Assembly (NCBI RefSeq): GCF_000682675.1
Contig: NZ_AWFA01000005.1
Span: forward strand, 1-64,000
Origin: Hyphomonas pacifica
GTDB taxonomy: Bacteria > Pseudomonadota > Alphaproteobacteria > Caulobacterales > Hyphomonadaceae
Length of the DNA stretch: 64,000 nucleotides
Direction of reading: 5' to 3'
Shown: positions 31,312-34,890 of the stretch, piece by piece
How positions within the stretch are numbered: position 1 is the first letter of the stretch
How the letters are laid out: every line of letters begins with the position of its first letter
Translations under genes and position numbers: made by a program
The notes under the pieces: generated by a model
What the model was told of the DNA's origin: nothing
Seen by the model: only the letters and a program-made list of their open reading frames with translations
Database searches by the model: none

Positions 31312-32964
31312 TCAGGACTGTCCCGGCTGGTATTTGAAGGACCATGTTAGGCTGTAGATTGGATCATCATTCAGACCTGAAACCGGCAGCTCAAAAGGCT
31401 CGGCCATTTCCAGCCCCAGCATGGCCATGTCTTTCCACTTGAAGCGCACACCGACCCCGGCAGAGCCGAGCGTGATGTCCTGCAAGGAAGAGGCAGGATT
31501 GTTGACGGAACCACCTCCATAATCGGCAAAGACATAAATGTCGCTTTGCTTGAAATTTCCTTTTCGCAAGGGACGGTAGCTTGGTTCAAAAATTGCGGCG
31601 TAGCCTGTGTCAAAGGCAACAAGACCGTTCCGGAAGCCGCGCCCGAAACTTGCCCCACCGATCAGCAGGCGCTCGTTTGCGGGGAGAGTATCATCTGTCC
31701 ATTGCGCGGAGGCGGACAGGTTCAGGCGAACGTTCTTGCCAACAGCCTGGATAAAACGGGAGCTGAGGCTCAGCTTCGTGAAGTCCACAGATGCGCCAGG
31801 GGTAGAGGTCTCAGCGCTGTTGACATCAATTCCTTGAGACAGGGTGACGCTGCCTAGAACGGCGCGCTTCTTGGTTGTCTTGCGGCCGGTCAGCCCAAGT
31901 CGGGCTGCGGTTACTTCATCATTGGTCAGGACAGACCCGAACGCAGCATTTGAACTCTTCAGATGGTCAACCCGGAAGCTCGCAGAGACTTCGCGCTTGA
32001 AGTCCAGGAGCAGGGGGTGAGACAGGCCGGCAGAGAATTGGGTGGCTTCCCCCTCGATCGGGAGGGAGTCCGGACGTGTCTCCTGATAGGCGGCGGAAAG
32101 GTCCAGCATAGTGCCGCGCGCGCCGACCGGGCTGCGATAGCTGACTTCGGCTGAGCGTGCCTGTTGGCCATCTGTTGATATCGACAGACGTCCGGACAGT
32201 TGATCCCCCTCGCGCATGAGATTGTACCCAACCCCACCTGCCGTAAGGCGGCCGCGATCAATCAGGCGGGATTCACGATTGTCATATCCGCCATAGAAGC
32301 GGTTCTTCTTGGGTTTGACATCCAGAACGACATTCGTTGCGCCTTGCTCCTTGGTTGTGCCTAGCCGGGGCTTTACCTCATAGCCCGGCACACGCCGCGA
32401 CAGGGTCAGGGCGCGCTCATAGCTGGAGCGGGAGGTTGGCTGCTGTCCGACAACAGGCGCCATATATCCAGAGAGCAATTGGCTTTCAGTGACTTTGCCA
32501 TCCTTGCGGACATAGGCATTCTTTACATAGCCTTCGGCGATGTGGACATCGACGACCCCATCAGACAAATCCTGACGGGGGATGGCGAGAGAGAAAAGTG
32601 CAACAGAGGAGTCCTGATACGCAGCGGACATGGCGGTGGCGAGAGCTTTGAGAGTTTGGACATCGGCCTGCCGTCCCAGATAGCTTTCTGCAATCATGGC
32701 CACGTCTTCCGGCACATCCGACCCGATGAAATTGATACCCTGTATGGTCGAGGCCTGGCCCACCGGAGCGGCCACATCGGTGCGGCCGCGTTGTTGAGGG
32801 GCTTCGGGTTTGGGCTCCGCCTCGTCTGGTTCCGGCGGCGTATAGCCGGGGTCGAGAGGGCGGTTCAATTCAGTCGCGGCACCTTGCAGTGCCGCGGCTG
32901 GTTGGAGAAGAAGCATCGCTCCGAACAGGGCGATAGCCGATAATGTACATGCGCGATGCTTCAT
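31312..32964 (-). CDS. TpsB-type outer-membrane transporter (ShlB/FhaC/HecB family)
   Basis: A 550-residue two-partner secretion (type Vb) transporter. A signal peptide and Pro/Glu-rich linker (to about 65) are followed by two POTRA domains (about 72-148 and 150-215) and a 16-strand-type beta barrel (about 220-550). The loop motif FGRGFRNG matches the conserved pore-loop RGF of the Omp85/TpsB superfamily. AAGGAC precedes the start. It lies 23 bases downstream of a collagen-like lipoprotein gene, with no TpsA exoprotein in sight, so that lipoprotein is its likely client. Confidence 0.88.
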   Translation of the reverse strand: MKHRACTLSAIALFGAMLLLQPAAALQGAATELNRPLDPGYTPPEPDEAEPKPEAPQQRGRTDVAAPVGQASTIQGINFIGSDVPEDVAMIAESYLGRQADVQTLKALATAMSAAYQDSSVALFSLAIPRQDLSDGVVDVHIAEGYVKNAYVRKDGKVTESQLLSGYMAPVVGQQPTSRSSYERALTLSRRVPGYEVKPRLGTTKEQGATNVVLDVKPKKNRFYGGYDNRESRLIDRGRLTAGGVGYNLMREGDQLSGRLSISTDGQQARSAEVSYRSPVGARGTMLDLSAAYQETRPDSLPIEGEATQFSAGLSHPLLLDFKREVSASFRVDHLKSSNAAFGSVLTNDEVTAARLGLTGRKTTKKRAVLGSVTLSQGIDVNSAETSTPGASVDFTKLSLSSRFIQAVGKNVRLNLSASAQWTDDTLPANERLLIGGASFGRGFRNGLVAFDTGYAAIFEPSYRPLRKGNFKQSDIYVFADYGGGSVNNPASSLQDITLGSAGVGVRFKWKDMAMLGLEMAEPFELPVSGLNDDPIYSLTWSFKYQPGQS

Positions 32965-32987
32965 GTGCTGTGTCCTTGTGCGGCAGA

Positions 32988-34130
32988 TCAGCTGCCGCCA
33001 CCGATACCGGACAGGAGGCCGCCAAGGCCGTTGGCTTCACCGCCTTCATCAGACCCCGTAAGGCCTTCCAGAAAGCCGCCCGTTTCTTCGGTATCCAGCA
33101 GGTCTTCGACCGTTCCGGTCAGGCTGTCTGTGGTGTCTTCCAGCAGACCGCCTCCCGTATCAGACGCAGACACTGTTTCGATCAGTGAACCTGTTGTGTC
33201 TTCCAGTCCGGATGCGGTCTCGGTCAGCAGGGCTTCCGTGAACTCCGGATTCGTCGTGGCTGCTATCACGTCTTCAACCGTGTTCTGGCTATCAGACAGG
33301 AGGTTTGCATTCAGCACGTCTCCTTCGCTACCAATAACGTCAACCGTTGCGACGCCAGGTACTTCCAGGCCGCCATCTGTATTCGGCGCCAGGTCCGCAT
33401 TGAGCAGCATGTCGTCATTGGCGACACCGGCTTCAAGCAATGTGCCCTCTGCCTGGGTGTCGGACAGGACGCTGAGACTGATTGCGGGTGTCTTATCCCC
33501 GCCGACGATATTAGATGCGCCGACATTGGCTGCGAGAATAGGAGAGGTCGCATCCAATACGCCGTCCACAAGCATTTCCTCGCCGCTGGCATAACCGGTG
33601 AGTGTGTCGCCTACATTGGTGACTGTATCTGCTGCGGCAACCACGACATTGCTGAGGGCAGAGTCCGAATTTGCATCCGTCATGACTGAAGCCAGTTGTT
33701 CGCCTGTTCCAGACAGCAGGTCACCTGCGGCCATGGAAACCGTATCCAGTACCGGAGCACTGGTATTCGGATCACCAAGGTTTGCCAGAAGGCCTGTGCC
33801 GCCAATGCCATTATCGCCGACCAGCCCGCCAGTGGCGATCATGCCCGCTTCGCCAAGATTGAAGTTGCCATCGTCACCGCTAGTGCCATCCAGGCCATCG
33901 GTGCCATTGATACCGTCCAGTCCGTCTACGCCATTTAGCCCAGCAATACCCTGTGGACCGCTGCGACCGGTATCACCTTTTGGCCCTGCTTCACCTTGAG
34001 GCCCAGCAGGGCCAACCAAACCGTTGGCGGTGCTGCCAACACTTGCGATGCGTCGTGTTGTTGTGGATTCACAAGCGCCCAAAACCAAAAGGGTGCTAAT
34101 CGCTGCGGTTGAAACGAGGGAGTGTTTCAT
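32988..34130 (-). CDS. Collagen-like (Gly-X-Y) lipoprotein, putative TpsB substrate
   Basis: A 380-residue predicted lipoprotein (lipobox LGAC, Cys20; Glu at +2 favours the outer membrane). Residues 37-87 are 17 uninterrupted Gly-X-Y triplets (GPAGPQGEAGPKGDTG and onward, ending GDDG), a short collagen helix. The remaining 290 residues are low-complexity Asp/Leu/Thr/Gly-rich with degenerate DTTxSLxxTVxxLL repeats and a GLLSGIGGG tail. GGAGG sits 9 bases before ATG 34130; an ATG six bases upstream is too close. It has no TPS or haemagglutinin domain. First gene of the TpsB operon. Confidence 0.82.
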   Translation of the reverse strand: MKHSLVSTAAISTLLVLGACESTTTRRIASVGSTANGLVGPAGPQGEAGPKGDTGRSGPQGIAGLNGVDGLDGINGTDGLDGTSGDDGNFNLGEAGMIATGGLVGDNGIGGTGLLANLGDPNTSAPVLDTVSMAAGDLLSGTGEQLASVMTDANSDSALSNVVVAAADTVTNVGDTLTGYASGEEMLVDGVLDATSPILAANVGASNIVGGDKTPAISLSVLSDTQAEGTLLEAGVANDDMLLNADLAPNTDGGLEVPGVATVDVIGSEGDVLNANLLSDSQNTVEDVIAATTNPEFTEALLTETASGLEDTTGSLIETVSASDTGGGLLEDTTDSLTGTVEDLLDTEETGGFLEGLTGSDEGGEANGLGGLLSGIGGGS

Positions 34131-34302
34131 GTTCATATTCCTCCGAGTACTGCTGAGCGCATGAGCCAGCTGACAGACAGGCCTGGCGCCAATGGATCCA
34201 TTTTGGATGGAACATTCTTCGAAAGAATTTAGCTGGAAGCTCGGTAACGGAGGTTACATTGACGTTCGATTAACCCGTTAATTTTGTTGTAAAGTTAAAA
34301 AA

Positions 34303-34833
34303 TCAGCCGCGATTGCCGTCTTCAAAGCTTGCTAAAGTCCAGTCTGCGAAGCGTTTAAGGTCTCCGCCGCGGAAAATGTACCCTGCAATGCCTGCAGCAC
34401 GTGCCGCCTCGATATCGGTTGTCTTGTCACCAATCAGAAAGCTGCTTTCTCTCTTGACGGGAAATTCGGCCATTGCCTTAAGCAACATGCCTGGATTGGG
34501 TTTTCGGTCAAAGCTGTCGCGGCGATAAAGAAAGTTTTCTCCGTCCGCGTGAAAGGGGCAAAAATAGATTTTGTCGATATGCGCGTTTTTTGCTGCTAAT
34601 TCGCTCTGCATCCAGCGATGCAGCGCGTTCATGTCGTCTTCGCTGTAATAGTTTCGGGCGATTCCAGACTGATTCGTCACCACAAAGACGAACCAACCCA
34701 TTTTATTGAAGCTGGAGATGGTCTCAGCAGCTCCTTCCACCCATTCAAAGTCCTCGATACGGCTGACATAGCCTTTATCGACGTTGATTACGCCGTCTCG
34801 ATCAAGAAACAGGGCAGGCCGGGAGGAGGTCAT
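34303..34833 (-). CDS. gmhB: GmhB-like HAD-IIIA phosphatase
   Basis: A 176-residue HAD hydrolase resembling D,D-heptose 1,7-bisphosphate phosphatase, an LPS heptose pathway enzyme. The nucleophile motif is FLDRDGVIN (D11, D13). Motif II is VTNQSGIAR, and RKPNPGM and IGDKTTDIEAA complete the site. The Cys/His zinc knuckle of classical GmhB is reduced to CPFH. No other heptose genes are adjacent, so histidinol-phosphatase-like specificity remains possible. Confidence 0.8.
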   Translation of the reverse strand: MTSSRPALFLDRDGVINVDKGYVSRIEDFEWVEGAAETISSFNKMGWFVFVVTNQSGIARNYYSEDDMNALHRWMQSELAAKNAHIDKIYFCPFHADGENFLYRRDSFDRKPNPGMLLKAMAEFPVKRESSFLIGDKTTDIEAARAAGIAGYIFRGGDLKRFADWTLASFEDGNRG

Positions 34834-34890
34834 TATACTGGTCTTTGCCCGGAGTGGGGACAAGTTGCAACACTCCCTGAGGCGCGCCCT

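Follow-up and report, generated by a model that had tools for sequence, protein, structure and literature searches.

The window analysed here is a stretch of 64,000 nucleotides from Hyphomonas pacifica (contig NZ_AWFA01000005.1, positions 1 to 64,000). On its minus strand a gene for a collagen-like lipoprotein lies 23 bases ahead of one for an outer-membrane transporter of the TpsB/ShlB type, of which we propose the lipoprotein to be the client. The lipoprotein gene occupies positions 32988-34136 (-) and encodes 382 amino acids if read from its first ATG, or 380 from the ATG at 34130. Since a GGAGG lies 9 nt from the second ATG and 3 nt from the first (34136), the start at 34130, adopted in a preliminary description of the locus, looks the better one. 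The gap (32965-32987, -) contains an AAGGA ahead of the start of tpsB, which encodes 550 amino acids (31312-32964, -); the arrangement thus is as first described, with both open reading frames (ORFs) present. A scan of the locus for promoters and terminators gave nothing clearly above chance.

The lipoprotein begins with a signal peptide (34071-34136, -) carrying the lipobox LGAC, whose cysteine (codon 34071-34073) is Cys22, or Cys20 counted from the second start. A short linker leads to 18 unbroken Gly-X-Y triplets (residues 39-92; 33861-34022, -) and then to an acidic part some 290 residues long. The triplets had been reported as perfect, which they are, and as 17 in number, which is one too few. 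Shuffled 10,000 times, the mature sequence gave runs of 8 at most; the collagen stretch is thus highly non-random, and its varied codons show that it is not a DNA microsatellite. Pfam assigns the Collagen family (PF01391) at 35.5 bits against a cut-off of 27.2. An identity with Lcl or Scl, suggested by NCBIfam matches of 31-33 bits, was rejected as due to the repeat only, the cut-offs being 325-500 bits. The part behind the stalk, set down at first as a low-complexity region of Asp, Leu and Thr, turned out to hold a conserved acidic domain (32991-33869, -), defined by alignment of its relatives (profile A2) and having 32 invariant columns across 12 sequences; it is the candidate recognition region of the client. 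No Pfam family was found in more than one of these 12 sequences, and a search of PDB sequences gave two weak matches only (E 0.058 and 0.95). The two-partner secretion (TPS) domain, PF05860, whose absence had been pointed out, was found by Pfam neither in the window lipoprotein (E up to 1) nor in the 12 post-collagen domains (E up to 10). At locus L007 (3185-4366, -), a post-collagen stretch around LSVLS...SGTL.E.GVASNDTLLNVDLATSTDTGL is present twice, so the domain may be built of repeats.

The transporter has the marks of a TpsB. Pfam finds ShlB at 86.3 bits (cut-off 22.7) and POTRA_2 at 32.2 bits (cut-off 24; residues 73-145). In its predicted model (predicted local distance difference test score, pLDDT, 80; predicted template modelling score, pTM, 0.78), two POTRA-like folds and 16 barrel strands can be read from the DSSP assignment. 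The best Foldseek matches of this model are CdiB (template modelling score 0.65, 3.8e-27) and FhaC (0.58, 5.1e-24; both scores by query length). Residues 1-60, the region of plug helix H1, have a pLDDT below 50 and show just a 3-residue helix. The loop 6 RGY/F motif is present as GRGF. Its arginine is found in 11 of the 12 rows of TpsB alignment A3 (L013 has lysine, and L012 reads RAF), and its column is invariant in all 13 rows of alignment A5.

The pair recurs in other genomes, as it should if the two genes form a unit. When 105 genomes of the family were searched with the window TpsB, 20 matched at 1e-10 and 12 of them strongly (E 3.3e-94 or better); in all 12 the gene immediately upstream of the TpsB encodes a Gly-X-Y lipoprotein with a lipobox. 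The profile of the post-collagen domain, run alone over the 105 genomes, found the identical 12. Among the eight weaker genomes, G077 has a glycine-rich lipoprotein, G064 has a TpsB remnant, and the other six have no Gly-X-Y lipoprotein within about 1.5 kb of the TpsB. The remnant in G064 (L067, 7997-8230), about 78 codons long and 76% identical to a member of a Hyphomonas pair, has no detectable lipoprotein beside it, an apparent loss of the pair. A pattern-based contig scan of a second collection, in which each of 84,980 species is represented by one genome, yielded 20 loci. A collagen lipoprotein is found upstream in each of the 12 strongest (2e-89 or better) and in none of the eight weaker ones (4e-23 or worse). 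The strong loci belong to Hyphomonas species, Henriciella aquimarina, Sphingopyxis terrae, Marinicaulis flavus, a metagenome-assembled genome (MAG) of the Parvularculaceae and other MAGs. As seven of them are common to both collections, the number of distinct pairs is 17; the five beyond the family's 12 come from Sphingopyxis, Parvularculaceae and MAGs. The occurrence of the pair in Hyphomonas and Henriciella also fits the supposition of a Hyphomonadaceae-like host. All 17 lipoproteins, 294-421 amino acids long, have a lipobox-like site with its cysteine at 19-25 (identified by motif, with start codons of our choosing), followed by E, N or S. The collagen region varies in length. The mature proteins are acidic (calculated isoelectric point 4.1 in 16 of 17, 5.3 in L035), and in 16 the lipobox cysteine is their sole cysteine; such an acidic, cysteine-poor chain would suit an unfolded export substrate.

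Could the adjacency be due to chance, or to unrelated genes hitch-hiking together? The Hyphomonas copies lie in largely syntenic surroundings, so that they cannot be counted as independent. However, the genes that flank the pair are others in Henriciella, G087, Sphingopyxis, Marinicaulis and the Co_bin.76 MAG, and of the 105 genomes the 12 with a strong TpsB match are exactly those with the post-collagen domain; mere coincidence is scarcely credible. No constant third gene was seen by eye beside the pair in the ORF lists. The Parvularculaceae MAG and Marinicaulis have upstream genes in common, and the contig of L038 is too short for comparison. Taken from its first start, the tpsB of Sphingopyxis overlaps its partner gene by 4 bases. 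When 57 TpsBs from frame-checked ORFs (L073 and L046 left out) were placed in a tree, the 17 collagen-linked proteins formed one clade apart from 39 others (bootstrap/Shimodaira-Hasegawa-like approximate likelihood ratio test 100/99). The tree of the clients has 11 of 14 splits in common with that of their TpsBs, and the correlation between the two (0.86) was reached in none of 5000 permutations. A 52-row tree, in which the collagen rows were ungrouped (39/4), was discarded; it was short of seven loci and had the ORF of L094 wrong (end branch 4.17).

Relatives outside the collagen clade suggest that the stalk need not be collagen. G077 (L060) and a Sphingobium plasmid (L112) have partner lipoproteins with a glycine-rich stalk of another kind, and the N-terminus of the L112 protein, CESNGGTRFSSVG, resembles the anchor of the collagen family. 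In L060 (4433-6080) the frame of the glycine-rich lipoprotein is apparently split in two, by pseudogene formation or sequencing error. A tree of 55 TpsBs (near copies L003, L007, L087 and L093 and long branches L021, L041, L042, L078 and L097 dropped, seven plasmid TpsBs added) separates 23 rows of the stalk-lipoprotein type from 32 others across a branch supported at 99/98. The same branch is found at 95/94 in a 37-row tree that kept 10 of the 32. The nearest of the others is a Lysobacter TpsB lying beside a large TpsA-like ORF. This branch of TpsBs thus appears to be specialised in lipoproteins with glycine-rich stalks and without a TPS domain. The early suggestion of an unusual, collagen-like class of substrate is supported in that there is a recurring two-gene unit with its own TpsB clade; it is too narrow in so far as collagen is only one of the stalk types. 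The domains behind the stalks are partly homologous. Profile A2 aligns with the corresponding Sphingomonad profile, A7, at a score of 55.6 over 77 columns, and with the post-stalk part of the glycine-rich L112 protein at 43.4 over 116 columns; none of the controls (column, block and sequence shuffles, 60 of each kind, and two reversals) scores above 23.4. A common post-stalk domain is thus supported in two of the three comparisons made with clients of the Hyphomonas type.

On plasmids of Sphingomonads the system seems to be associated with an enzyme. A related 2-oxoglutarate (2OG)-Fe(II) oxygenase is found on 19 plasmid records (Sphingobium 15, Novosphingobium 3, Sphingomonas 1), of which we opened 12 regions, the other seven (H17, H18, H19, H20, H22, H23 and H24) having oxygenases 96-100% identical to that of L116. 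The oxygenase lies directly behind TpsB in all 12 (in L134 by annotation name only), and in 11 a downstream gene, at distances between about 400 bases and about 7 kb, encodes a lipoprotein with GPT, GPS or GPG triplets; the longest runs with glycine at every third residue range from 9 to 53. The three oxygenases scanned all match PF13640 (53.5-55.9 bits; cut-off 27). Invariant in all six compared are H104, D106 and H163, which we take to be the metal ligands of an HxD...H motif, and R173, presumably the 2OG-binding arginine. Their nearest PDB sequences are PKHD-type hydroxylases (4e-6) and the prolyl 4-hydroxylase 5c5t (8.4e-4). At 1e-15 the oxygenase is found in 2 of the family's 105 genomes, neither of which has the pair, and in none of the 12 pair genomes. 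From its position and its distant likeness to prolyl hydroxylases, one might guess that the enzyme modifies the neighbouring collagen. It is tempting to go one step further and regard the whole as a distinct two-partner branch for lipid-anchored, glycine-rich stalks, with a new post-stalk recognition domain and with a plasmid oxygenase that would hydroxylate the collagen, on proline or threonine, before its export. We put this forward tentatively, as somewhat short of an even chance. If true, these plasmids would carry a self-contained module for the export and maturation of bacterial collagen.

As to their layout, the plasmid loci with TpsB, oxygenase and proline-rich collagen lipoprotein are L113, L115, L116, L119 and L129-L135. 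In L115, L116, L134 and L135 the annotated gene covering the remainder of the client begins only after the signal peptide and after most, or even the whole, of the collagen stretch. In L131 and L133, by annotation, and in the similarly arranged L132, the module is near plasmid replication and partition genes; genes for an EAL-domain protein and an autotransporter lie downstream, and one for a prepilin peptidase behind the oxygenase.

Our interpretation is that the lipoprotein and its TpsB probably constitute a lipoprotein version of two-partner secretion. Sequence comparison speaks for it through the pairing, the co-inheritance, the separate TpsB clade, the lack of a TPS domain or a TPS-domain client, and the stalk types joined by a partly homologous post-stalk domain. 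What we infer further concerns lipidation, recognition through the post-stalk domain, translocation, trimerisation and the leaflet that would hold the lipid. One could envision the precursor being exported by Sec, lipidated at the lipobox cysteine and delivered to the outer membrane. There the POTRA domains would engage it through its post-stalk domain, in place of a TPS domain, and the acidic, cysteine-poor chain would be threaded through the barrel of the TpsB. Its collagen-like segment (glycine-rich in relatives) would serve as a stalk between the lipid anchor and a distal domain at the surface. The collagen part might trimerise at the cell surface and, as a triple helix, would measure about 15 nm by its rise per residue. 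If this is right, TpsB barrels can export substrates lacking the TPS domain, which is regarded as defining the pathway, lipidated collagen-like chains included; one would then have to ask how a barrel with POTRA domains lets a lipoprotein through. The pair would also provide a simple two-gene handle on the surface display of collagen in Gram-negative bacteria, and the Sphingomonad module would make bacterial collagen hydroxylation directly testable.

The true client of the TpsB might instead be encoded elsewhere, with the lipoprotein acting in the periplasm as an accessory (a tether, plug or chaperone, like SadB for SadA). Proteins of the Omp85 family often work with periplasmic lipoproteins, and the residues E, N or S behind the cysteine are, by the sorting rule, ordinary for outer-membrane lipoproteins. 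There is also a parallel in SadB, a trimeric lipoprotein that assists a trimeric autotransporter, according to the relevant part of a published account (PMC8151025). Against such a role, the window's genome, which has one ShlB match and one collagen match, gave no PF05860 match when a dedicated TpsA was looked for. Nor did 11 of the 12 pair genomes give one, the exception being G038, with one such match and two further TpsBs. Moreover, a variable, repetitive and cysteine-poor stalk looks more client-like than befits a conserved chaperone, and partners of the collagen type occur in two arms of the TpsB branch. We therefore consider an accessory function unlikely. Still less probable, in our opinion, is that the collagen is a periplasmic spacer between outer membrane and peptidoglycan, with the TpsB as a structural platform and not an exporter. 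A span of roughly 15 nm for 18 triplets, again from the rise per residue, would agree with this, as would the resemblance of a lipid-anchored trimeric rod to Lpp. However, a spacer would leave a complete barrel with an RGF-type motif unexplained, and the length and type of the stalk vary strongly.

Several observations weigh against export of the lipoprotein through its neighbour. As far as we know, passage of a lipidated chain through a TpsB would be unprecedented. In a class-level sample of 385 genomes, a TpsB of some kind was found at 1e-15 in 87, and among the 29 best-scoring of these loci besides the window's own, the pair was found in none within about 1.5 kb on each side. This count is approximate, the neighbour scan having picked ORFs by motif, with a wrong choice for L094 and doubtful ones for L073 and L074. 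The other TpsBs taken from the genome searches were likewise inspected within about 1.5 kb, so that more distant clients would escape. The post-collagen profile found only the window's genome among the 385, and profile A7 found none, in a set that holds no positive control for it. Of the client and TpsB splits, 3 of 14 disagree, and the congruence of the two trees partly reflects shared species history. The TpsB of G077 is weakly placed, the fork that joins L014 with the collagen rows having 88/45 in the 55-row tree and 86/75 in the 37-row tree. The homology of the post-stalk domains is limited to the 77 and 116 columns; A7 and L112, compared directly, align over 17 columns with a probability of 45, and A2 has no match in the open piece of the G077 partner. 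The strict Gly-X-Y run of L007 is only 6, and in Novosphingobium PP1Y no collagen lipoprotein was found within 25 kb. Finally, an AlphaFold model of the lipoprotein as a monomer (13 sequences) failed, with a mean pLDDT of 33 and a pTM of 0.29.

The proposed export of the lipoprotein by its TpsB inspires comparison with several known systems. The type Vb pairs FhaB/FhaC, CdiA/CdiB and HMW1A/B have the two-POTRA TpsB barrel, the RGF-type motif and the adjoining partner gene in common with it; unlike theirs, the partner here is a small lipoprotein with a collagen or glycine-rich stalk and no TPS domain. The adhesins Lcl and SclA/SclB likewise have a Gly-X-Y stalk, and it is the repeat alone that matches the window lipoprotein; these adhesins are not known to have a TpsB partner. 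Slam-dependent lipoproteins, too, reach the surface by way of a barrel in the outer membrane; the barrel here, in contrast, is by Pfam a ShlB with POTRA_2. The lipidated autotransporters NalP and SphB1 resemble our client as type V substrates with a lipobox; in the part of the source concerned with them they are type Va proteins, with the barrel in the same chain and not in a second partner (PMC8151025). Bucl8 and other collagen-like proteins of Burkholderia also tie a predicted collagen-like lipoprotein to an outer-membrane channel, although, in the sections of the article that describe Bucl8, the collagen and a TolC-type efflux domain are in one chain, with no TpsB partner (PMC4565658). No earlier account of such a pair appeared among literature titles and the openings of abstracts, a body with slight coverage of subscription journals and preprints. 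The word "collagen" is absent from the main text of a survey of Omp85 and TpsB proteins (PMC4104836) and of a review of two-partner secretion (PMC5422565). The one paper found to join two-partner secretion and TpsB with "collagen-like" uses the term, in the relevant passages, for MMP-9 only.

Around the locus itself, the largely syntenic Hyphomonas neighbourhood differs from those of other genera, in whose ORF lists no HAD-type phosphatase was seen beside the pair; in the window one such protein (DRDGVINVDKGY, heptose-bisphosphatase-like by eye) is encoded upstream of the lipoprotein gene on the same strand (34303-34863, -).

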